Below the pieces are notes generated by a model that ran no database searches, was not told where the DNA came from, and saw only the letters and a program-made list of their open reading frames with translations. A program made the translations under genes and the position numbers. Source: Methanomassiliicoccus sp. (GTDB taxonomy: Archaea > Thermoplasmatota > Thermoplasmata > Methanomassiliicoccales > Methanomassiliicoccaceae). From it: DNA of 32,808 nt. Positions within the stretch are counted from its first letter, which is position 1. Every line of letters starts with the position of its first letter. Shown piece by piece: positions 1 to 10,020 of this stretch. The stretch covers positions 1 to 32,808 of the forward strand of contig JAWQJJ010000013.1 of assembly GCA_033485155.1 (NCBI GenBank), written 5' to 3'.

Positions 1-135
1 CAAACCTATATGAAAAAGTGGTATCGAGCCAGATGAACGACCGTTGAATAATTTCACCTTCCTATAGGTACTATAGAGCTGCATTATTCAAGGAATTATT
101 CTGGGTAGGGAAGAAAGCTCGAAGGGAACAGTTTC

Positions 136-146
136 TTTTAAAAAAT
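136..146 (+). promoter_or_regulatory. TATA box for the TIR-like gene
   Basis: A TTTTAAAAAAT stretch fits an archaeal TATA box. Its centre (about 140) lies 28 nt before an ATT codon at 169 that is in frame with the downstream gene, so transcription would begin at about 167-169. The rest of positions 1-189 is AT-rich with no gene seen. It holds two CTATAG hexamers 3 nt apart near 62-77. Confidence 0.5.
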
Positions 147-189
147 GTAACTCGATAAGTTCGAGGGGATTGAGATTCCAACTTGTTTC

Positions 190-1176
190 GTGATTTGCCC
201 TATAGGAGAGAATGGCACAGAGACTAGGCAACATGCTAACCTGACATTGGAATACGTTATAGAGCCAGTGGTCAAGCCTCTTGGTTATGATGTTGAAAGG
301 TCTGATACCTTACCTAATCCTGGCATGATAACTGGTCAAGTCATTGATAAGCTTCTAACTTGCGAGTTGGTGTTAGCGGATTTATCATTCCACAACCCAA
401 ATGTCTTTTATGAACTGGCCATTCGCCATATGACTGATTTGCCCGTCATTCAGATGATAAGTCCTTTTGGAAAAAATATTCCATTTGATATCAGGGATAT
501 GAGAACGGTATATTTTGGAACTGATCTTCCTTCATGTGATGCTGGTAAAAAAGAACTTCAAAAACAAGTAAGTGAAATCATAGGTGCTCCTGGCAAAATA
601 ATCGACAACCCCATAAGACAAGCGTTGAATGGTAGAAAATTCAAGGAGTGGGCAGAGAAGCAGATGAGCGCTGGCACATCAGGCAATCTTGACAAGGCGT
701 TCATGGCACGAATGGTCAGTTTGATGGATGATGTAAAGAATATCAAAGAAACATTAAGTAATAACCCAGTCGGCGCCATAGCTCCGAATCAGGAGATTGA
801 TCGAGCCCAATCGGCTCCAAAGAAAATGAAGGTCGTTCAAACTAACACCTATCATCGACCTGGTTTGAAGATAAATGAACTCGACCTTTCGGGCATGATT
901 GAGACTGTCCAGCTTATGATATCTTCAGATGGGTCGTATAAATCATGGCAGGTGCACTTGACCGGAATCGAATCGGAGGCTTCGAGGATGTTATTCGACT
1001 TAATTAAGGCTACAAAATCGGCTGTAGATCTTGAGGTTGAACAAAGAGATCCTGCATCCAATGACTCCTCGTTTTCTGGACTAACTATTATCAGCAACGT
1101 ACGATCATCGTTGGACACGGCACAATCAAAGGCGATACTTACGGGAACGGGCCCCCTTAAGTTTAAAACTGGTTAG
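190..1176 (+). CDS. TIR-like / nucleoside 2-deoxyribosyltransferase-like protein
   Basis: The N-terminal ~130 residues form a Rossmann-like domain. It has an ICPIGENG strand-loop, a GMITGQVID helix start and the hallmark ADLSFHNPNVFYELAIRH block, seen in TIR-like and nucleoside-deoxyribosyltransferase-like proteins of defence and mobile loci. Such domains often cleave NAD or nucleosides; activity here is inference. Residues ~200-328 form a second domain I do not recognise. The gene is clearly more AT-rich than its neighbours, which suggests transfer. The first ATG/GTG/TTG is the GTG at 190, which falls inside the first beta strand. The frame is open back to 151, and reading from an ATT at 169 would add IEIPTCF and complete the strand, exactly where a leaderless transcript would start. 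The true start may therefore be 169. It converges on the mobile-element operon. Confidence 0.75.
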   Translation: MICPIGENGTETRQHANLTLEYVIEPVVKPLGYDVERSDTLPNPGMITGQVIDKLLTCELVLADLSFHNPNVFYELAIRHMTDLPVIQMISPFGKNIPFDIRDMRTVYFGTDLPSCDAGKKELQKQVSEIIGAPGKIIDNPIRQALNGRKFKEWAEKQMSAGTSGNLDKAFMARMVSLMDDVKNIKETLSNNPVGAIAPNQEIDRAQSAPKKMKVVQTNTYHRPGLKINELDLSGMIETVQLMISSDGSYKSWQVHLTGIESEASRMLFDLIKATKSAVDLEVEQRDPASNDSSFSGLTIISNVRSSLDTAQSKAILTGTGPLKFKTG

Positions 1177-1209
1177 AAGCCAGCCATGTCAGAAATAGAA
1201 GAAATCGTT

Positions 1210-1425
1210 TCACTTCCGGCCCATCCGGCCGGACAGTCCTTTCTCCGTTATCTTCCTCATCACCTCCTCTTGTCCGACGCTAAAGAACTCCTCCAGCGCT
1301 AGGTCGGCGAGGTCGGACTTCTTGACCCTTAAAAGCGTGTAAAACTTCTCCAGCCTGACGGCTTGTTTCGGACTGATCCTAATCTGGATGGTAACGACCT
1401 TGCTTTCTTCCGCCTCGGAGATCAC
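1210..1425 (-). CDS. Ribbon-helix-helix-like protein (last gene of element operon)
   Basis: Small 71-aa protein with a short strand (VVTIQIRIS) followed by two helices (PKQAVRLEKFYTLL; KKSDLADLALEEFF), the layout of MetJ/Arc/CopG-type DNA-binding proteins. I chose the GTG at 1425: it overlaps the upstream stop as GTGA, and a GGAGGG ribosome-binding site lies 7 nt before it. A GTG at 1440 in the same frame would put that ribosome-binding site inside the gene. Its neighbour is a second protein of the same type, so the two may form a regulatory or partition pair. Assignment to the ribbon-helix-helix fold is by pattern only. Confidence 0.65.
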   Translation of the reverse strand: MISEAEESKVVTIQIRISPKQAVRLEKFYTLLRVKKSDLADLALEEFFSVGQEEVMRKITEKGLSGRMGRK

Positions 1426-1613
1426 TTCGTATCCCTCCACTGGCGGACCATCGTTACGATCTCGTCCGCTGGTCTTGATAGGAAGAGGTCGACGGCGAGA
1501 GCGACGACTTCAGACTTATGACAACCTTTGATGCGGTCCAGCTTGGTCAAGGCGGCCTCTTGTTCTATCGGCAGTTTAACTTTGACGACCGTTTCTTTCT
1601 TCGCCTCGGCCAT
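1422..1613 (-). CDS. Ribbon-helix-helix-like protein
   Basis: A 63-aa protein with a basic strand (TVVKVKLPIE) and two helices (QEAALTKLDRIKG; HKSEVVALAVDLFL), typical of small ribbon-helix-helix regulators. The start at 1613 has a ribosome-binding site (AAGGAGG) 11 nt upstream, and its A is shared with the TGA of the preceding microgene (TGATG). The frame is open for 36 more codons upstream, but that stretch overlaps the microgene and is unlikely to be coding. The stop overlaps the next start as GTGA. Likely roles are autoregulation, copy control or partition of the element (inference). Confidence 0.7.
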   Translation of the reverse strand: MAEAKKETVVKVKLPIEQEAALTKLDRIKGCHKSEVVALAVDLFLSRPADEIVTMVRQWRDTK

Positions 1614-1729
1614 CACGTCGACCGCCTCCTTTTCCTCAAGCGTTCGGCAACGATAACCACGAGCGATAGAGAGAGCATCACCAGGACAGTGAACACCAAG
1701 GAGAGCCAAACATGCTCCCAAGAGTTCAC
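1613..1729 (-). CDS. 38-aa single-pass membrane microprotein
   Basis: The reading frame encodes a short polar N terminus, one ~20-residue hydrophobic segment rich in Leu, Val and Ser, and a very basic tail (ERLRKRRRST). This is the profile of a single-pass protein with a positive-inside C terminus. GTG start with an AGGAGG site ~8 nt upstream. The start overlaps the previous stop as GTGA, and the stop shares its A with the next ATG (TGATG). No family recognised. The two coupled junctions and the TM profile are the evidence that it is real. Confidence 0.6.
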   Translation of the reverse strand: MNSWEHVWLSLVFTVLVMLSLSLVVIVAERLRKRRRST

Positions 1730-1788
1730 GGCGACCGCCTCCTATCTCCCTCGTTTCCCGGAGCTAAAAGGAGATGGTTTTTGCTCAT
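1726..1788 (-). CDS. 20-codon linking micro-ORF after the recombinase gene
   Basis: A 20-codon frame whose ATG overlaps the recombinase stop as ATGA and whose TGA overlaps the next GTG as GTGA. It therefore bridges the recombinase and the small membrane protein with no untranslated gap. It begins with a hydrophobic patch and ends basic (DRRRSP). It may serve only to carry ribosomes across the junction; a functional peptide is speculative. Confidence 0.35.
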   Translation of the reverse strand: MSKNHLLLAPGNEGDRRRSP

Positions 1789-2366
1789 GCCGAATCACCA
1801 CCCTCGCCGTTCGATGCTGGCTGAGGTAAAAGGGGGGGTGGGGTTCGGACGACTCCTTTTTTCTTGCCCGCATCCGAGCGTTTCTTCCTCGGCTTCTTGT
1901 CCTTGCTTCCCTTCGGCCGGTGACAGAGCTTGCCCTCAGCAAGAGCACGAGCAGTCCCTTCCTTCGATCTCTCCAAGGTAAGTTCCCGCTCGAACTCCGC
2001 TAGTCCGGACAGGAAGCTAAGAACGAACTTACCGAACGCTCCCCCGGTGTGTATGTCCTGCTCGGAGCATTCGAGGACCACATGATACCGGTCCAGTTCC
2101 TCCAGAGTGTTGAACAGGTTCTTGGTCGACCGCATGAACCTGTCGACCCTGGTTACAAAGAGGATGCCGAAGCATCCCGCCTTGGCGTCCAGCATCAACC
2201 GCTGGAAGGCTGGCCTGTTAGGATTCTTTCCGCTGGCGAAGTCAATGTATTCCTTGTAGACCTCCCAACCCCTCGCCTGGGCGATCTGACGAAGCCTGAA
2301 GAGCTGCGTCTCCGGATTCTGCCCCTGGTCGTTGGTCGAGACCCTAGCGTAGAGAGCGACCTTCAC
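1785..2366 (-). CDS. Serine recombinase (resolvase/invertase family)
   Basis: A 193-aa protein with a complete resolvase catalytic domain. ALYARVSTNDQ carries Arg8 and the nucleophile Ser10. VTRVDRFMRS (residues 71-80) carries the conserved Arg/Asp cluster, and a long E helix follows (FVLSFLSGLAEFERELTLERSKEG). After about residue 143 it has a basic stretch (HRPKGSKDKKPRKKRS) and a low-complexity tail. A normal resolvase C-terminal HTH is not evident, so the DNA-binding part is shortened or degenerate. GTG start with a GGGGTGG site 4 nt upstream. It would catalyse integration/excision, inversion or multimer resolution for the element; which one cannot be read from sequence. Confidence 0.9.
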   Translation of the reverse strand: MKVALYARVSTNDQGQNPETQLFRLRQIAQARGWEVYKEYIDFASGKNPNRPAFQRLMLDAKAGCFGILFVTRVDRFMRSTKNLFNTLEELDRYHVVLECSEQDIHTGGAFGKFVLSFLSGLAEFERELTLERSKEGTARALAEGKLCHRPKGSKDKKPRKKRSDAGKKKGVVRTPPPLLPQPASNGEGGDSA

Positions 2367-2680
2367 GCAACCACCCCAGGAACAGTTACAAATACGGATG
2401 CGGTCGGCACGCCCACGTCGGGGTGATAAGAATAGGTCCGATACGTTTGGATTCGAATCTTTTCAGAATGAAGGACTTTGAGACGCCACAGGAAGCCAGC
2501 AGCCACATCTACTACCTGTATCGCAGGGCGGAGCTTGTGAATGATTTGGGCAATGAATATGCCAACACAGCACCTAACATCGCGGCAGTTACCGATGGCG
2601 GAAGAGTGGCCGCTCTCCGAGACATGGTCACGAAGGAAGAGATCGGGACCATCTGGAGTGAATAGGACTGAACGATTCAC
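2363..2680 (-). CDS. 105-aa frame bridging membrane microprotein and recombinase (uncertain)
   Basis: The frame starts at a GTG that overlaps the stop of the gene before it (GTGA at 2680-2677) and ends with a TGA that overlaps the recombinase GTG (GTGA at 2366-2363). A GGGAGGG site precedes the start by ~7 nt. The positional fit matches the rest of the operon. Against it, the protein has no recognisable family and a composition (Cys, His, Ser, Val rich) like an antisense shadow. An 80-aa frame on the other strand covers the same DNA and looks more protein-like. Confidence 0.42.
   Translation of the reverse strand: MNRSVLFTPDGPDLFLRDHVSESGHSSAIGNCRDVRCCVGIFIAQIIHKLRPAIQVVDVAAGFLWRLKVLHSEKIRIQTYRTYSYHPDVGVPTASVFVTVPGVVA
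2423..2665 (+). CDS. Hypothetical 80-aa acidic protein, antisense to the operon (uncertain)
   Basis: Balanced, soluble-looking composition with amphipathic helices (TPQEASSHIYYLYRRAELVNDLG; VAALRDMVTKEEIG) and purine-rich first codon positions. Start is GTG 2423, or ATG 2468 for a 65-aa form. A TATA-like TACAAATACGG at 2386-2396 would place the transcript start near 2420, consistent with a leaderless GTG. It lies wholly opposite the 105-aa minus-strand frame, so one is probably an artefact unless this is a true sense/antisense pair. No family recognised. Confidence 0.48.
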   Translation: MIRIGPIRLDSNLFRMKDFETPQEASSHIYYLYRRAELVNDLGNEYANTAPNIAAVTDGGRVAALRDMVTKEEIGTIWSE

Positions 2681-2832
2681 TGCCCATCCCTCCCCGGCAG
2701 TGGAGGAATGATTACAAACTCGGTCGGAGGGGCCGAGAGCTTTTTCATCCTGTGCCAGATGGCCAGGGCCAGAAAAAGAGGAGAGGCGACGATGACCAAC
2801 AGAATGGAGACAGCTCGAACCGGAGAGATCAT
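2677..2832 (-). CDS. 51-aa single-pass membrane microprotein
   Basis: Starts with ATG overlapping the stop of the large HTH gene (ATGA at 2832-2829). Residues ~5-27 form one hydrophobic helix (VRAVSILLVIVASPLFLALA), followed by WHRMKK and a proline-rich tail (IIPPLPGRDGQ). The layout suggests N-out/C-in by the positive-inside rule. Its stop overlaps the start of the 105-aa frame as GTGA. No family recognised. The second of two single-pass microproteins in this operon. Confidence 0.6.
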   Translation of the reverse strand: MISPVRAVSILLVIVASPLFLALAIWHRMKKLSAPPTEFVIIPPLPGRDGQ

Positions 2833-4025
2833 CCGAACATCACCTCTTCATCCAGCGAAGCGATAGCAGGGTCTCTGGGAGCTTGTGGTTGGCCTTTGCG
2901 TTGCATCTCCAACCTCTGATACTCCATCGTCCTGGCCTGGAACTCGGTGAAGTTATCGAGCGCTTTCCATGTCTCCTTTAACCGGCCGAGAACGCGAAGC
3001 CGTAAGGCGTCCAGCTCTTCCTCTTCCGCTTGGATTCTCGCCTGTATGTCGGCCAGCTCCTCCTCCATCGCGTCGTGGCTTTCCTTAGCGGTCAAGAGGA
3101 AACGAGCGTTGGAGATGTTGGCCTGAGCGAACTCGATCTCCGTGTCTCCCTTAGAATGGTCGATGATGACGCCCGGATGATCGGCGAAGCCAGCAAGGTT
3201 CTTAGGCAGGTGCTTGAGCAGTTCAGGATTGCTGTAGGCAAAGTACACTTGCCCGACCATCTTGCCGACCCTACAGCCCCTAATACGGTCGAACTTCCAG
3301 CCGCCATGACGCTCAAGGAAGTCCAGCACGCCGAACACTTCCTTATCGAAGAAGTGAACAGGGTAGTCCTTCCCGGCGTCGATGTCAGCGGCCGTAAGAT
3401 GAATGCGAGGCGGGTATACGTGCAGATTACGCAGGTTCGGCGTGATCCTGAGCTGAAGTACAACGGAGTAATCCCATCCAGGTATCCTAAGCTCGGTCGT
3501 CCATCTCCAATTGTTATGGTACCCCTCCTCGCCCCCCAGGTCGCACGGCTCTACAAACAGGGGAATTTCGATGGCGTCCTTCCCCGGCTCGGCAACGGAG
3601 ATCACTTTCTGCTCACCGAGCTTGGTGATAGGAAAGACGATATGCCCATGCATATGCGCTTCTAGCGTTTCGATGTCATACTGTTCGAGACGAATAGACG
3701 CCGGAGGAGAGGTTGAGGCGATCGCAGAAGGCATGACAGGGGGTCTGTCAACCGGTTGAGGACTAGGTTGAGCCCCTGAGCCAGTATCCTCTTCCTCGGC
3801 AACTTTCGCCGAGATCGGCCTTGCCTCCTCAAAGAACCTTGCTTTCGGCCCCCGTTCATACAAACCGGTGCCGTCGATCGGCCTCAAAATCTTCTCATCG
3901 AGGAGCTTATTCTTTTGTCTTCTTACCGCTTCCTCGGAGATATCCAGTATCCGAGCGACGTCTGCCTGTATATGCCCCTCAACGAACAGCTCATAAATTT
4001 GGCGTCGGCGGGGGGTGGTTTTCAC
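2829..4025 (-). CDS. Large HTH protein, possible replication initiator or regulator of the element
   Basis: 398 aa. Residues ~5-65 form a helix-turn-helix/winged-helix domain (RQIYELFVEGHIQADVARIL, then SEEAVRRQKNKLLDEKI and a wing-like IDGTGLYERG). A proline/Ser linker (~70-110) leads to a mixed alpha/beta domain (~115-310). Residues ~315-365 are a Glu-rich coiled coil (EEELADIQARIQAEEEELDALR). It is the largest protein of the operon and lies directly downstream of the GGTTGAG repeats, three of which fall inside its own 5' half. This arrangement recalls iteron-binding replication proteins, but no Rep catalytic motif is visible, so a repressor or partition role is equally possible. GTG start; a GGTGA-type site lies ~15 nt upstream. 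Confidence 0.72.
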   Translation of the reverse strand: MKTTPRRRQIYELFVEGHIQADVARILDISEEAVRRQKNKLLDEKILRPIDGTGLYERGPKARFFEEARPISAKVAEEEDTGSGAQPSPQPVDRPPVMPSAIASTSPPASIRLEQYDIETLEAHMHGHIVFPITKLGEQKVISVAEPGKDAIEIPLFVEPCDLGGEEGYHNNWRWTTELRIPGWDYSVVLQLRITPNLRNLHVYPPRIHLTAADIDAGKDYPVHFFDKEVFGVLDFLERHGGWKFDRIRGCRVGKMVGQVYFAYSNPELLKHLPKNLAGFADHPGVIIDHSKGDTEIEFAQANISNARFLLTAKESHDAMEEELADIQARIQAEEEELDALRLRVLGRLKETWKALDNFTEFQARTMEYQRLEMQRKGQPQAPRDPAIASLDEEVMFG

Positions 4026-4035
4026 GGTGATGATG

Positions 4036-4242
4036 CTAATTCACCCCCCGACCCTCAACGGCTTCCTCAAGGGGTTGAGTTGAGGGTTGAGCCGTGAAAA
4101 AAAGAGGTTGAGTTTGCTGGCTCATCAAAATGACAGCCTTTTCGGAGGTTGAGCCGTGTGGTTGAGTGTCATGGTTGAGACCATGACGGCCAGCGTAGTT
4201 GAGAATAGGTTGAGACTTGGTTGAGACGAGGTTGAGCCTCAT
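4036..4242 (-). CDS. 68-aa repeat-encoded protein across the iteron array
   Basis: The ATG overlaps the preceding stop (ATGA at 4242-4239) and has a GGGAGGG site ~7 nt upstream, so translation is plausible. The product is built largely from the translated repeats, giving recurring TQP/SQP/STQP units and no clear fold. It ends 10 nt before the large HTH gene. Either a real Gln/Pro-rich peptide or a frame kept open so ribosomes can cross the repeats to the HTH gene. Confidence 0.4.
   Translation of the reverse strand: MRLNLVSTKSQPILNYAGRHGLNHDTQPHGSTSEKAVILMSQQTQPLFFTAQPSTQPLEEAVEGRGVN
4073..4236 (+). repeat. Iteron-like array of GGTTGAG heptamers
   Basis: Exact GGTTGAG copies begin at 4073, 4085, 4106, 4147, 4160, 4173, 4208, 4219 and 4230, with AGTTGAG variants at 4078 and 4197. 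The last four units (4197, 4208, 4219, 4230) have an exact 11-bp period, close to one helical turn. Two more intervals are 13 bp. Three further copies (3711, 3754, 3766) lie in the downstream HTH gene. An opposed CCCTCAAC at about 4052 pairs with the first units. Such arrays are typical of iteron origins or operators bound by the adjacent initiator; function here is inferred. Confidence 0.8.
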
Positions 4243-4415
4243 TCCCATCCCTCCCGGTGAAAGCCTTGACGAATGAGCCTAGCAGCGTACGCCCGAGGAG
4301 GCCATAGCGGCCGGTCTTCTCTGACCACTCGGCCGTTAGGCTCGGTCCAGGTGGCCACGTCCTTACCCAGCTTTACCTGGGTGCCGTCCGAGTGCGTGAG
4401 GACGATATCCTTCAT
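4239..4415 (-). CDS. 58-aa hypothetical protein of the element
   Basis: The ATG overlaps the upstream stop (ATGA at 4415-4412) and the TGA overlaps the next ATG (ATGA at 4242-4239). The N-terminal half has a strand pattern (KDIVLTHSDGTQVKLGKDVA); the C-terminal half is Arg/Trp-rich (DRPLWPPRAYAARLIRQG), suggesting a small nucleic-acid- or protein-binding domain. No family recognised. Double coupling and clean codon use support it as a gene. Confidence 0.6.
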   Translation of the reverse strand: MKDIVLTHSDGTQVKLGKDVATWTEPNGRVVREDRPLWPPRAYAARLIRQGFHREGWE

Positions 4416-4888
4416 TCCTTCGCCTCCGCTATTGCGGCTCTGACGGTCTCAGGCGTGAGCAAGTAGGCAACAGAACCGTTGAGAGTCCCGGCACGACGGA
4501 CGAACGGACAACAGCGCACGATCTGGAGCGCACCCCTCCGTTCAAAATATCTTGAATGTTCGTCCCGAACTTGTCTGAAGACATCGACGGCGGTGAACTT
4601 GCTCAGCCGTATGCAAGCATCGAGGAGTAGCCTCTGTTTGAGGTCGAGGTCATCGAACATTGCTGGTCTCTGGACCTTCGGCTTGTGGTCCAAAAGAGCC
4701 TCGGCTTCAATGTTCTTTCGAGAGAGCATCACCAGGAAGTTCACCACCTTCCCGATCTCCATCGCATCCAAGCCCTCGCGCCTCAGGCTGTTGAAGACCT
4801 CCATCGCCTCCTGATAACAGGGGTCTTTCATGGGGTCCTTGTTGAGCGAGGGGAAGGCTACTGGCATTTCGCTAATGGACTCGTCCAT
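4412..4888 (-). CDS. Hypothetical 158-aa protein of the element
   Basis: Mostly helical soluble protein. Residues ~20-65 are helical (PCYQEAMEVFNSLRREGLDAMEIGKVV). A central segment (LDLKQRLLLDACIRLSKFTAVDVFRQV) resembles the first helices of a winged-helix domain, and the C terminus could supply the wing (GSVAYLLTPETVRAAIAEA). ATG 4888 is chosen because its A is also the last base of the upstream TGA (TGATG); a TTG one codon earlier is possible. No family recognised; a DNA-binding role is inference. Confidence 0.68.
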   Translation of the reverse strand: MDESISEMPVAFPSLNKDPMKDPCYQEAMEVFNSLRREGLDAMEIGKVVNFLVMLSRKNIEAEALLDHKPKVQRPAMFDDLDLKQRLLLDACIRLSKFTAVDVFRQVRDEHSRYFERRGALQIVRCCPFVRRAGTLNGSVAYLLTPETVRAAIAEAKE

Positions 4889-5004
4889 CAAGCATCACGC
4901 CCCTTGAACCGACGCTGGACGCCTCGTATCAGGAGTCTCATAGGTAAGACAAAAAAGAGTTCAAACCGCCACACGATCTTGTTGAGGGAGTGAGCGGTCA
5001 TCAT
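4888..5004 (-). CDS. 38-aa amphipathic basic microprotein
   Basis: Starts with a tandem ATG ATG, the first overlapping the upstream stop as ATGA (5004-5001), and ends in TGATG with the next gene. The middle is hydrophobic and aromatic (IVWRFELFFVLPMRLLI) and the tail strongly basic (RGVQRRFKGRDA). It could be a membrane-associated or DNA/RNA-binding peptide. Supported mainly by its two coupled junctions; no family recognised. Confidence 0.5.
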   Translation of the reverse strand: MMTAHSLNKIVWRFELFFVLPMRLLIRGVQRRFKGRDA

Positions 5005-5243
5005 TCATCCTCCGAAGGATTGAACACCTGGCCGTCCGGCCTCCGGATGAAGTCCGGGCAGGGAACTTTCTTCTCCTCCCGACCGGCGAACCGTCTCTTC
5101 GTGCATCGGTCCCAATGCCCGTTGTAACGAGAGCAATGCAGCTTCCTCGCCTCGTCGTGACAGAAAGCGCAATGCATCTTCCGTATGCGGACCTTGTGAA
5201 CGCCTACCGCCTCGATAACGCTGGCCAGCTTGGAGAGCTTCAA
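5001..5243 (-). CDS. Small Cys/His-rich protein, probable zinc finger
   Basis: About 80 aa. Two Cys pairs with His residues (MHCAFCHDEARKLHCSRYNGHWDRC) suggest one treble-clef or zinc-ribbon site, with a fifth Cys (KVPCPDFI) further on. I prefer TTG 5243: it overlaps the upstream stop as TTGA and lies 5-6 nt after a GGAGGTG site. A GTG at 5252 overlaps that ribosome-binding site. Probably a DNA/RNA-binding or protein-interaction module of the element. Confidence 0.65.
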   Translation of the reverse strand: MKLSKLASVIEAVGVHKVRIRKMHCAFCHDEARKLHCSRYNGHWDRCTKRRFAGREEKKVPCPDFIRRPDGQVFNPSEDE

Positions 5244-5464
5244 ATCGAACACCTCCCCCGGCCTTCGAGCCTTGCCCGCTCGATGATCTCCCGCTGGTGT
5301 GGTGGAAGCTCACAGAACTTGAGGCTCTTCTTGGTCGGATTGGCTTGGTACTCTCTCAGCGATTCCTCGCCCTCGTGTTCAAGGATGAAGAGTTCAAGCG
5401 CGATCTGGTCCTCTTCCGCTTCGGTCCTCGTTGGAACAGGTATCGAGACAGGAGGACGAGCCAT
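5240..5464 (-). CDS. Hypothetical acidic protein; start may be an ATA at 5512
   Basis: A 74-aa product from ATG 5464, rich in Glu and helix formers (TRTEAEEDQIALELFILEHEGEESLREYQ), ending in HQREIIERARLEGRGRC. No family recognised. ATG 5464 has no ribosome-binding site. The frame is open upstream to an ATA at 5512 that sits 5 nt after a perfect AGGAGGTG (5518-5525) and overlaps the previous stop as ATAA, giving a 90-aa form. In this operon the expected junction would be ATGA, so the start may have mutated or AUA may be used. Confidence 0.6.
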   Translation of the reverse strand: MARPPVSIPVPTRTEAEEDQIALELFILEHEGEESLREYQANPTKKSLKFCELPPHQREIIERARLEGRGRCSI

Positions 5465-5508
5465 CGCTTCAAGGCGAAGGTATGCTTCGGTGCAAGCTGA
5501 GGTGTCGG

Positions 5509-5760
5509 TTATACTAACACCTCCTGTCGTGTGCTCTTCGGCCTACAATGACCGTTCTCGGACCTCGGCCGCATCTTCCCTAGCGACCGGCCGTCAACGA
5601 AGCCGGTAGAGGCGGCAAAGCGCTTGCAGGGCGGGCAAGAATCGCAACTGTCGCCTTTACAGCGCTTCGTCATCTCCTTGCACGCTTCGATCTCCTTGCC
5701 GTCGCCGTCTACGTATTGACAGCCCTCGCAACAATCGTTGAAGGGGATTTCCTCGCTCAA
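5509..5760 (-). CDS. Cys-rich 83-aa protein
   Basis: Nine Cys in the first half (DCCEGCQYVDG, EACKEM, KRCKGDSCDSCPPCKRF) imply one or two bound zinc ions or an Fe-S site; the C terminus is basic. Starts with TTG overlapping the stop of the first operon gene (TTGA at 5760-5757) after a purine-rich AAGGGGG site. It ends in TAA, unlike the TGA stops nearby. No family recognised. Confidence 0.65.
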   Translation of the reverse strand: MSEEIPFNDCCEGCQYVDGDGKEIEACKEMTKRCKGDSCDSCPPCKRFAASTGFVDGRSLGKMRPRSENGHCRPKSTRQEVLV

Positions 5761-5897
5761 ATGGCCGCCCCCTTGGTCTTAAGAACATGGTTGGAGGCAA
5801 CCCATTTCCGGTTGGATTCAATGAGGGTTTCTAGGTTTTTTACAAAGGCTTGGTTGGGCCAGTTTGGGCAGACACCCTCTAATCCCAGTGCCCCCAC
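5757..5897 (-). CDS. 46-aa leading gene of the element operon
   Basis: A frame from GTG 5897 to TGA 5757 encodes GVCPNWPNQAFVKNLETLIE followed by a Lys/Asn-rich tail (NRKWVASNHVLKTKGAAI). AGGGG lies 5 nt before the GTG. Its TGA overlaps the next gene's TTG. A TATA-like CAATTATTAG at 5961-5970 would give a leader carrying the perfect hairpin at 5909-5932. The frame is open further upstream through the hairpin but lacks a better start. No family recognised. Confidence 0.48.
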   Translation of the reverse strand: MGALGLEGVCPNWPNQAFVKNLETLIESNRKWVASNHVLKTKGAAI

Positions 5898-5908
5898 TCC
5901 TTCCCCTG

Positions 5909-5932
5909 GCTCACGGCAGTATTGCCGTGAGC
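5909..5932. repeat. Perfect inverted repeat at the element's right edge
   Basis: Ten-bp arms (GCTCACGGCA / TGCCGTGAGC) with a GTAT loop. On the minus strand it lies in the probable leader of the first operon gene. On the plus strand it is followed by T-rich sequence. It could be a leader hairpin, a terminator, or a binding/crossover site for the serine recombinase; the sequence alone does not decide. Confidence 0.7.
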
Positions 5933-6019
5933 ACTTTTGTACATTTTTGACTATCTAGCTCTAATAATTGGGTAACAATGTGATTAGGAGAAAGTGATCA
6001 TCCATTATGTGGACCGTCC

Positions 6020-6307
6020 CTAGTCCCGCCCCCTGCTCCTTCCCCCCAGGATGTACATTGATATCGCAGTGAACGGCGAGATGATGGCGGCAACAATCCA
6101 CTCGAAGGTCGAGCCTTCGACCTCCCAACCCGTGGTTGAAAAATTGAATATGCCGATGGCCGCGATCACCATCACTATCACGGAGATGACGACGCTCAGG
6201 CTGAGCAATGGCTGTATCGATGAGGAGACTTGCGAGAACAAAAGAAACGCAGCCAAAATCGAAATGATGGCGAGAGCCAGAGCCACGCATGAGACTACTT
6301 GCTTCAT
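6020..6307 (-). CDS. Small multi-pass membrane protein
   Basis: 95 aa from ATG 6307 (a TTG at 6319 is in frame but has no better ribosome-binding site). Hydrophobic segments at ~5-25 (SCVALALAIISILAAFLLF), ~35-60 (SLSVVISVIVMVIAAIGIF) and ~72-90 (WIVAAIISPFTAISMYILG), with a basic C-terminal GGRSRGRD. Three TM helices are likely. No family recognised. A 27-bp palindrome lies ~27 nt upstream, suggesting its own regulated promoter. Confidence 0.72.
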   Translation of the reverse strand: MKQVVSCVALALAIISILAAFLLFSQVSSSIQPLLSLSVVISVIVMVIAAIGIFNFSTTGWEVEGSTFEWIVAAIISPFTAISMYILGGRSRGRD

Positions 6308-6333
6308 TACCCTATCCAACTAGATCCCCAATG

Positions 6334-6360
6334 ATAATTGTCCGCCCGGCGGATAATTAT
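6334..6360. promoter_or_regulatory. 27-bp near-perfect palindrome, putative operator
   Basis: ATAATTGTCCGCC and GGCGGATAATTAT face each other around the centre, with one mismatch in 13 pairs. It sits 27-53 nt upstream of the small membrane protein start, overlapping where its TATA box is expected. This fits an operator for a dimeric regulator. The AT-rich stretch 6361-6540 beyond it holds no gene I can support. Confidence 0.55.
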
Positions 6361-6542
6361 TTCGGGCTGTGTTGGACAATTTGAGATGCCAAAAAGAGTA
6401 AATAAACTGCATTCGGTTCGAGGAGAACGGACACCTCAATTTGATGCTAAAAACAATCTAAGGAGCAATATCGAATTATTTGGACATATGTGTCTAATAT
6501 CAAAATATGAACCCGAGAGATAAATTGCATTGAAGTCAAAGT

Positions 6543-6567
6543 GTTGGACGATCTCGGAACGTCCAAC
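6543..6567 (-). terminator. Hairpin directly after the Lys/Glu-rich microgene
   Basis: Eight-bp arms GTTGGACG / CGTCCAAC around a 9-nt loop begin immediately after the TAG stop. Only a weak T tract (TTTGACTT) follows, so it may be a terminator or a 3' stability element. Confidence 0.5.
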
Positions 6568-6723
6568 CTACTTCAATACCTTTTTCTTGATGTCCTCTCC
6601 GGTCTTGGCAACCTTCTCCATCGCTTTGGCACCGGTCTCCTGGGCCTTCCCCTCCGCCTGTTTCGCCTGTGCCTTGGACTTCTCCTCTTCCGCCTTCCGT
6701 TTGGTATCCTCTATCGTTCCCAT
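6568..6723 (-). CDS. 51-aa charged, Ala/Lys/Glu-rich helical protein
   Basis: The ATG at 6723 follows a strong AGGAGGG site by 5 nt. The product is one long polar helix without aromatic residues (KRKAEEEKSKAQAKQAEGKA, then ETGAKAMEKVAKTGEDIKKK). The composition resembles CsbD-like or LEA-like stress proteins, usually disordered until bound; that role is inference. A mismatched hairpin lies upstream at 6784-6805, and a hairpin follows the stop. Too short for routine gene callers. Confidence 0.75.
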   Translation of the reverse strand: MGTIEDTKRKAEEEKSKAQAKQAEGKAQETGAKAMEKVAKTGEDIKKKVLK

Positions 6724-6947
6724 TCGAAACCCTCCTGTCAATATTGCGTTTGACGTCTACCAATACATAGTTCTTGCCACTACCTTGCCTGGGCACCCTG
6801 GCAAGTCGCTCGACGAACACCTTCTTGTACCGCCGTTAGGAACGCCCACACAAAATGGTTAATTGAGATTTTTCGTTAACCTGAACATTGCCTAGGTGCA
6901 ACCCATTTGTCGAGAAAATCAAGGACTTGGAGAGATGACGGCTCTTT

Positions 6948-7982
6948 TTATTGATCATCTCCTTGTTGCGGTGCAACCTCCCAAATATGGATGGCACATC
7001 CGTTCTCCATGTAAGCGTTATAGGTGTGAGATCCGGCTGTCAACGGTTCGATGGTCACTGAGATAAGATAGTGATTCGAGTGGTCAAAAACAAATGAGGC
7101 ACTCAGATCCATGATTCTCGATTCCTGAATGGTAACGTTCTTCCCCAGGAGATCGAAGGAAAAGCTAAGGAACGGTGAATCGGGAAGTCTGTAGTACTGG
7201 TCGGTCTCGCAAGCCGATTGTATGGCACTCACCGTAGCGTTCTCCCCGTAAGGAATATTCAGTGTGGAGCACTCCGAGGAGATTTTATTATAATCGATAT
7301 CATCGCAACCTATCGGCATCGCGAATATCTGACCAGACTGATTGCAGCGCAGACTGGTAATTTCTCCGGCGTCGGTATATGCGCCACAAACGGTCGCATT
7401 CATGCATAGAACGAAGGAGGTGGAATTCACCGTCTGCAAGTTGAACTCGGTTTCATTGTTGAAGGACATCCATACTTCTATACTGTTAGTTCCGCTCATT
7501 TTCTGCACCGCATATATGTCCAATTTTTTATCTAGTGTAAGATTGAGAAGGGTCGAGTTATCTATCGTGCTAGCGGAGACAATAATGCCAAGGGGTACAG
7601 TGATATTCTTTTCACTATCCAGGGTGAAGTTGAACTCGAACGATGATGCGGTCGATGCATCGAAATATGTTACCTCGCACCATCGAACTCGATCATGGTC
7701 GACGGCTGCGACTATTGCCTTCTGATCCGCTGAGAAATTGTATACGTATGAGAAGGAGTACCAGCCGCTCGCGTTCGTCGTTGTGGAAGATGATTCAGCA
7801 ATGACTTCCGCGTTCTCTATAGGATGCCCATTCTCATCTGTGACCGTGCCATGAATGGTCAAGAGCTTGCTTGTGGTTGTTGCTTCGCTCTGAGGGTTGT
7901 AGGCGAGAGCTGCGACCATCACTATGAATGCCGATGCTAGTGCCAGAGCAGTTAGGATCAACCGCTTTTTCTTGTTCTCCAA
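6948..7982 (-). CDS. Secreted/anchored protein with carboxypeptidase-regulatory-like domain
   Basis: 344 aa with a basic N terminus (ENKKKR) and a hydrophobic signal or anchor helix (~9-28). Residues ~40-110 match a carboxypeptidase-regulatory/prealbumin-like beta sandwich (LTIHGTVTDENGHPIENAEV ... NASGWYSFSY). The remainder is beta-rich and extracellular-looking, with many N-x-S/T sequons (NFT, NIT, NST, NLT, NET, NAT, NQS, NVT) and several Cys. It is therefore a likely surface glycoprotein and a candidate substrate for the glycan operon in this window. Starts at TTG 7982; a strong TATA box lies at 8015-8022. Confidence 0.82.
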   Translation of the reverse strand: MENKKKRLILTALALASAFIVMVAALAYNPQSEATTTSKLLTIHGTVTDENGHPIENAEVIAESSSTTTNASGWYSFSYVYNFSADQKAIVAAVDHDRVRWCEVTYFDASTASSFEFNFTLDSEKNITVPLGIIVSASTIDNSTLLNLTLDKKLDIYAVQKMSGTNSIEVWMSFNNETEFNLQTVNSTSFVLCMNATVCGAYTDAGEITSLRCNQSGQIFAMPIGCDDIDYNKISSECSTLNIPYGENATVSAIQSACETDQYYRLPDSPFLSFSFDLLGKNVTIQESRIMDLSASFVFDHSNHYLISVTIEPLTAGSHTYNAYMENGCAIHIWEVAPQQGDDQ

Positions 7983-8014
7983 TCAAATCCCCGTTCATAA
8001 TGAAAAATGTGAAA

Positions 8015-8022
8015 TTTATATA
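8015..8022 (-). promoter_or_regulatory. TATA box of the secreted-protein gene
   Basis: TATATAAA on the minus strand, in an AT-rich tract, is a near-consensus archaeal TATA box. Transcription would begin near 7992, giving a leader of about 10 nt. Confidence 0.65.
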
Positions 8023-8030
8023 TTATCATT

Positions 8031-9028
8031 AAATTATTAATGGTGGCGTCTTCCACTCAGCCGATCCGGTGGTAGAGTGTAGTTCGCTGATATTCATCAC
8101 CACCCTTTCTTCCCGAATCTCTCGACTCTTGCTTGTGAGATCTTCAGAACCCATACTGAATTTTTATTTCAAAGGATGCGGATCGGGAGGCTCCATGCTC
8201 TACACAACAATTTGAGCACCTCCAATTTGTGCTCTATCGGCCGATATTTCCTATGCTGCACTAATGCGCTGCCCCTGAAACCTCCCCATCTTGTCTCCGA
8301 CCATCGTTTCCTAGTTTTTATCACTGAATTGCTGGGAACCAGCGAAAGCCCTTCTTCTAATAAGTGCCAGGATACGTAGCCCCTCTTCACGCCTGAGTGT
8401 GCTGGCCATGGAGTATTCGTTCACAACTTTCAAGTAGAATGTTTTTGTGATGAGACTTCGGCCACTGCATCACTCTTTGATGTCATCCAGGAGCTAACGC
8501 GTGAGCAGTGGTCCTCCGGCCCACTCTCGTTCCCACCAAGAGGTTGTGGGCCGGACTCTCCTCTCGTTCACAATTGGATTCGGTGCCTCCCCAACATCCC
8601 CGATCTCCCTGCCATTCAACCAAAGTGTGTTCGTTGACCTGCCAGGGCGCCATCGGCGGAAAGCGCGGTCATCCATCGGAGCTACATATCCCTTCCTGAC
8701 GATTCATTCTGTTCACTTAAATAGGCCCGTGGCAAATCAATAGTCATCCAAGGTATCCCCGAACCAGCAGGAAAGCGTTTCCTCCACAGAACACCCTCTC
8801 AGGTTTTATCGGTCCGGCTGATACCCGAGGACCTCTTTTTCTATTATCTAACTCCAGTGAACGTACGACAATCGACTCATGACGGACGTCAGGCAATAAT
8901 CGAGTTAACCATACTGGTCATGGCGGAAGTGAATCGTTTTTCGGCCTCAGGTGTATTCGCATCGACATGTTAGTTCCCGGCCATCCACCTCTCTACGCCG
9001 TCCTCATCGTCGAGTAATAAGGCACCCC
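8031..9028. other. ~1 kb without a supportable gene
   Basis: Short frames exist on both strands, but none has a recognisable domain, a convincing ribosome-binding site or coding-like composition. A strong inverted repeat (CCGGCCCAC at 8516-8524, GTGGGCCGG at 8546-8554) lies in the middle. On the minus strand at about 8890-9020, a protein-like stretch (DDEDGVERWMAGN, stop, then HVDANTPEAEKRFTSAMTSM) looks like a decayed gene fragment. Confidence 0.5.
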
Positions 9029-9729: not shown

Positions 9730-10020
9730 ATTCCGATGGCCGATCGGCCCTGTGGCGAGGCAAGCGTTTCTGGTCGAGCATCTATGATTTATAGCTCAAG
9801 AGCGATCTCTGTAAAGGGAATGCACTAATTTGCATTTACAAAATGGGATGCATCAACCCCTTCATTTCCACTGAAATCTTGAGCGATATATAAAATGCTG
9901 GCTACCGCATATTACTTAAATATCTTTTTTGATAACAATAAATGTGCATTGTAACTATAGTCCCTCTCCTTGAGCAGTAGTTTGGAGCGGATTTGTTCAT
10001 AGCGACCTAAGAGGAAGGAT
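9730..10020. other. AT-rich intergenic stretch, no gene seen
   Basis: No coding frame supported. Contains TATA-like sequences (GATATATAAAATG near 9890 and ACTTAAATATC near 9915, plus strand) that could drive an unannotated short transcript. Confidence 0.4.

Follow-up and report, generated by a model that had tools for sequence, protein, structure and literature searches.

An iteron-like repeat array in translated DNA beside an HTH protein gene of Methanomassiliicoccales mobile elements: a candidate replication origin

Introduction

Methanomassiliicoccales are methanogens of the human and ruminant gut. In a genome of this order, closely spaced copies of the word GGTTGAG lie next to the gene of a large helix-turn-helix (HTH) protein and inside an open reading frame, which raises the question of what such an array does and why it is found in DNA that reads as coding. 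We found no description of the replication of Methanomassiliicoccales mobile elements in the literature. In this study, we analysed the complete stretch of 32,808 nt that holds the array (the window), which constitutes contig C13 of a 2.8-Mb genome, and compared it with related elements in the same genome and throughout the order. From this comparison, the array probably serves an integrated plasmid- or provirus-like element as an iteron-type replication origin, with the adjacent HTH protein as the initiator.

Results

A motif scan returned nine exact GGTTGAG matches (at 4073, 4085, 4106, 4147, 4160, 4173, 4208, 4219 and 4230) and two AGTTGAG variants (4078 and 4197) in 4073–4236, together with three GGTTGAG copies inside the HTH gene (3711, 3754 and 3766; 3711–3772, minus strand), as the original prediction had it. 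The four successive units at exact 11-bp steps that it described are likewise present (4197, 4208, 4219 and 4230), and TRF also recovered an 11-bp array at 4198–4236. The array adjoins the upstream side of the HTH gene, whose sense strand is the minus strand, on which the word reads CTCAACC. It consists of sub-arrays separated by a CTGGC core (4117–4121, plus strand) within TTTGCTGGC (4113–4121), while the three intragenic copies fall into the linker codons between the HTH and a second domain, and two more GTTGAG cores are found in reverse orientation near 3977 and 4053. The whole window contains 19 GGTTGAG copies versus 4.7 expected, a count reached in none of 100 shuffles. Nine copies fall within 170 bp, a density that 500 local shuffles never approached (two copies at most); in 60 shuffles, four was the top count of any 7-mer. 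The best 50 bp of the window array are 60% A+T, so that no pronounced A+T-rich unwinding tract is visible, unlike in the related elements L060 (76% over 50 bp) and L023 (70%), where it is clear; we count this against an origin function. An Rfam scan of positions 1–9000 gave no match.

The array is part of an integrated mobile element, which spans the contig start to approximately position 5772, where similarity to other elements stops, and whose genes at 1210–5760 have counterparts in elements on contigs C9, C8, C2 and C10 of the same genome. Beyond it, the window mostly has the appearance of ordinary chromosome with tRNAs and metabolic genes; a comparison with other genomes of the genus for an empty site gave no syntenic match. 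On the minus strand, the 398-aa HTH protein, our proposed initiator, is encoded from a GTG start at 2829–4025 and comprises an N-terminal HTH domain (approximately residues 1–65), a linker, a second domain and a coiled coil. A 70-aa ORF (4036–4248, minus), ending 10 nt 5' of the HTH start, runs through the array and, as originally described, shares an ATGA overlap with a 58-aa ORF (4239–4415, minus; dN/dS 0.18), next to which lie a 159-aa element gene (4412–4891, minus) with copies in C9 (96% identical) and C8 (64%), and three small genes of 83, 74 and 83 aa (5001–5760, minus) common to other elements. Downstream of the HTH gene a small serine recombinase (1785–2366, minus; Resolvase, PF00239) is encoded, a neighbour in most relatives, followed by two small proteins of 76 and 99 aa (1210–1721, minus), suspected to be of DNA-binding type and common to the C8 and C9 elements. 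A 328-aa element protein at 190–1176 (plus), absent from the C9 copy, strongly matches phage families of unassigned function (phrog_3634, E 1.9e-40) and is possibly defence cargo. The contig breaks inside a 130-bp element repeat (1–130, plus) that occurs at six genomic places and lies to either side of the C8 element in direct orientation, which makes it a candidate element end or attachment sequence. Just past the element, an 83-bp stretch (5878–5960) resembles sequence beside the C10 element and on a contig of another genome. Further downstream, a short dispersed repeat (9856–9941) recurs with 83–86% identity on C3 (two places), C9 and C6, and partially in another genome of the genus.

The element is present a second time on the opposite strand of C9, where the HTH protein is 95% identical to that of the window; this copy allowed us to separate conservation of DNA from conservation of protein. 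Between the two copies, none of 75 repeat bases are changed, versus 11 of 138 spacer bases (p 0.007). The array ORF displays a dN/dS of 1.40 in comparison to 0.02–0.18 for neighbouring genes, and a pS of 0.04 versus 0.29–0.59. The array is therefore kept as DNA, not as protein, and the 70-aa product as a genuine conserved protein was rejected on account of its dN/dS. The linker codons that hold the intragenic repeats likewise show a dN/dS of 1.05, whereas the rest of the HTH gene is strongly conserved. With the repeats located in open frames and encoding repeated Gln-Pro or Leu-Asn, they could in principle be a mere coding feature of a repetitive QP-rich protein, or chance. We regard this as scarcely conceivable, since the reading frame shifts at 11-, 12- and 13-bp steps, the ORF combines high dN/dS with low pS, and other elements carry other words at the same places, encoding different residues. 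The same word is found in C13 and C9, thus in one cell, which we count against the origin reading. In the C9 region (L008, 9878–13111), genes for a DNA methylase (PF01555) and for a protein resembling DndB are likely defence cargo.

The HTH protein belongs to a family of at least 28 proteins in 16 of 30 genera of Methanomassiliicoccales, plus one virus contig; five members reside in the source genome itself, others in RumEn M2, RUG10898 and further named records, while distant HTH-family relatives share 15–25% identity, a few of them in more distant members of the phylum. All share the architecture of N-terminal HTH, variable linker, second domain, coiled coil and, at the C-terminus, a conserved (V/G)MYx or GYx, which in the window protein takes the conserved form VM(Y/F)x, with the near-terminal Tyr of the family replaced by Phe. 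The second domain contains the conserved motifs H-x-(N/S)-G, G-W and D-x-S-x-G-x-x-E-x-E. In Pfam, PHROG and PDB, it gave no match that would name it, only generic HTH matches being returned, which we count against the origin reading, as we do the absence of a free copy in plasmid and phage collections searched with the HTH protein of the window and with two of its relatives. Among the 28 members, none matched Rep_3 or other Pfam initiator families at E 0.01, none matched Phage_rep_O, and one gave a weak match to TIGR01610 (0.0014). No invariant Tyr that could serve as the catalytic residue of a rolling-circle Rep is present in the second domain of the 28 aligned members. Membership in Rep-Arvir was likewise rejected, with 0 of 28 members matching DUF7845 while the positive control, HRPV-3 ORF9, matched at E 5e-115.

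In R1 parC and tubC, two groups of approximately 11-bp repeats lie upstream of the gene of the binding protein. The layout in the window resembles this, and a weak TubR profile match was obtained, so that the array could be a partition site bound by the HTH protein as a centromere-binding protein in the manner of ParR/parC or TubR/tubC. We judge this to be very improbable: no ParA, ParM or TubZ partner was found among the scanned element genes up to the contig end, the HTH protein is three to four times larger than proteins of the ParR/TubR type, and we know of no repeats within the gene in these systems.

Most related elements carry a word of their own in a shared layout, with an upstream array and one to three copies in the linker codons of the gene. 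We observed GTCAACC in C2, TCCGAACA in C8, AGTCAAC in C10, AGTAAAGAC in L023, TTCCGGA in L024, GTTGCAAC in L025, GTTCGGA in L028, CCGAACC in L064, TAACGTACC in both L071 and L120, and TCATACCC in L072, with ACGGCC and CGTGCC as probable words of L063 and L070. With words derived from upstream DNA alone and the linker zone defined as +210 to +340 of the HTH gene, 18 own-gene copies were counted in 11 of 15 elements, where permutation of words and linkers gave a mean of 2.2 and none of 20,000 permutations reached 18; in portions of the HTH gene outside the linker the words are absent or rare. The amino acids that the intragenic copies specify vary from element to element, which indicates selection on DNA. 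A CTGGC core between sub-arrays is found in 8 of 9 related elements (0 of 300 shuffles), and other members carry a palindrome at this position. At L026, L027, L051, L068 and L076 no clear array was visible and no word was forced; L026 and L027 are counted against the origin reading. Homologous elements devoid of repeats would have spoken against the original prediction, but most of them carry repeats of different sequence at the same positions; its claim that an iteron-type array accompanies the gene of a dedicated HTH protein is well supported by comparison.

Word similarity correlates with similarity of the recognition helix (Mantel r 0.25–0.31, p 0.011–0.0008), while a control with the 20 residues past the helix gave r 0.04 (p 0.33) in the non-redundant set and r 0.15 (p 0.06) with a close pair included. 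In addition, a (K/R)STVSE helix is found in L028, L059 and L064, whose proteins are otherwise distant and which all carry a TTCGGA-type word. This covariation points indirectly to the HTH domain as the reader of the array, and together with the recurrence of each word in its own linker suggests a repeat word that would be specific to its cognate protein.

The frame through the array is a trait of the family as well. In 16 of 17 elements (3.5 expected from shuffles), it is open from one end of the array to the other and terminates between −14 and +22 relative to the HTH start, a count to be taken as indicative because start codons and first and last repeats were set by hand for each relative. 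In eight elements, an exact ATGA overlap with the HTH start is observed, and in several the frame forms the C-terminal end of a small protein rich in Cys (CPLKPGLxC); the window equivalent is the 70-aa ORF. The suggestion that coding and control DNA are merged at this locus is consequently upheld for the embedding, but not for the product: without protein-level selection on the 70 aa, what appears merged is an ORF reading through cis-acting DNA. Since the protein sequence is free to change, the frame likely serves to couple translation of the initiator to the passage of transcription and translation across the array.

Two related elements, L071 and L072, are proviruses of 9.4 and 9.2 kb, bounded by 15-bp direct repeats of the tRNA-Ser(GGA) 3' end (L127 8038 and L128 8648); their HTH proteins are 71% identical. 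Inside the two proviruses, small membrane proteins are encoded, and a 304-aa gene, whose appearance and location suggest a tyrosine-type integrase, stops beside attR. In-silico joining of the att sites yielded, in both genomes, one frame across att repeat and array with an ATGA overlap onto the HTH gene, and the first ATG of this frame overlaps the 3' end of the 304-aa gene. As the joined frame spans the att repeat, the leader frame is split by integration into the tRNA gene, and excision would bring the recombinase-like gene, the array ORF and the HTH gene back together as a single overlapping operon. A 14.4-kb IMG/VR contig (3300029825_000675; L120/L125) encodes an HTH protein at 78% identity, with an array, alongside a serine recombinase, virion-like large membrane-anchored proteins and a Zot-like ATPase, and seems to represent a Methanomassiliicoccales virus that bears the HTH-array module. 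No polymerase or recognised Rep was found within its 14.4 kb; its ATPase matches DnaA-like and Zot families alike, and weakly, which is counted against the origin reading.

A serine recombinase accompanies HTH gene and array in most elements, lying 3' of the HTH gene, and the arrays of L071 and L072 begin approximately 45 bp from attL in tRNA-Ser. Both observations would suit repeats that act as accessory or arm sites beside an attachment site or a resolution site, and an HTH protein that serves the recombinase as an accessory factor. This is quite improbable in our view, since the 7.45-kb contig L023 pairs HTH and array with a tyrosine integrase (PF00589, 2943–3986), the window array is distant from both the element ends and the 130-bp repeat, and the word tracks the HTH helix. 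L023, on which no serine recombinase was found and which lacks the terminal overlap of a circular contig, together with the serine type in most elements, shows that HTH and array are not tied to one recombinase.

Discussion

We propose that the array is an origin read by the adjacent protein. This reading draws on an array beyond chance, repeats conserved as DNA, recurrence of each element's own word in its linker, covariation of helix and word, the CTGGC core in most relatives, the near-universal frame through the array, and the presence of HTH gene and array on a virus contig and in proviruses. Origin activity is the best reading of function that we can draw from these sequences. The HTH domain would bind the repeats cooperatively, and the bound protein may nucleate an initiation complex and open the DNA, with the host replisome recruited via the second domain and the conserved C-terminal tail. 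Binding of the same repeats could repress the HTH gene, and pairing of upstream with intragenic repeats could limit copy number. In the two proviruses, restoration of the operon by excision would tie initiator synthesis to circularisation.

Regulation alone could account for part of this picture. The HTH domain resembles MarR, GerE and sigma-region-4 regulators by profile match, the array lies upstream of the protein's own gene with intragenic sites suited to a looping repressor, and TATA-like sequences occur among the repeats of some relatives, all as expected if the protein represses its own transcription, or regulates the operon, by cooperative binding and looping to the intragenic sites and plays no role in replication. 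A conserved part of 330 aa beyond the HTH, at least ten sites, a conserved non-repeat core between sub-arrays, a virus contig on which HTH and array occur with no other initiator seen, and an operon restored upon excision make a purely regulatory role rather unlikely; autoregulation probably coexists with initiation.

Going one step further, we tentatively put forward, as a possibility that we do not yet favour, a family of archaeal initiators, not described before, in which translation always runs through the origin, with iterons in a leader ORF that ends at the start of the initiator gene and again in linker codons. Integration into tRNA-Ser would split the leader so that only the excised circle expresses the initiator properly, and word and HTH helix would coevolve, giving several compatibility types per cell. 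The module of array and initiator, with approximately ten natural words, offers a test set for which HTH residues read which word. It additionally allows asking whether the words act as compatibility groups and whether the module could drive a shuttle vector, while the conserved frame raises the question whether passage of ribosomes or transcription regulates origin firing.

Three known systems share parts of this organisation, as do the partition sites. Compared with R1 parC/ParR and tubC/TubR, clustered repeats likewise lie 5' of a DNA-binding protein gene, but the protein, small in those systems, is larger here, copies are intragenic and no NTPase partner is found among the scanned element proteins. 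In the pleolipovirus SNJ2, whose initiator (ORF19, DUF7845) is of the Rep-Arvir type, the replication operon is reported to be restored only upon excision (PMC13107129). The family described here likewise consists of archaeal virus or plasmid proteins with an HTH-type domain, and an excision-restored operon is proposed for L071 and L072; Rep-Arvir differs in being a rolling-circle nickase fused to a MarR-like wHTH with a hairpin origin downstream, and the initiators are unrelated. In iteron plasmids (Rep_3/RepA, pi, RepE, TrfA), direct repeats approximately one helical turn apart accompany the gene of the binding protein, with autoregulation and specificity groups (PMC4980987). The same arrangement is found here, and autoregulation and specificity groups are expected; in contrast, the family has no match to Rep_3 or other initiators, the words are shorter (7–9 bp) and repeats are also intragenic.

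Lambda O has an N-terminal DNA-binding part and iterons in its linker codons, with iteron type paired to O type. The iterons of lambda lie in mid-gene of their own initiator (PMC7466680), and the proposed origin would work in a comparable way. Here, too, iterons are located in the initiator gene between the DNA-binding and C-terminal parts, although most of them lie upstream in a second ORF and just one to three in the linker, the family has no Phage_rep_O match, the host is an archaeon and a clear A+T tract is missing in the window. An iteron origin with its cognate initiator is a known arrangement; the conserved placement of the array in translated DNA is what is unusual here.
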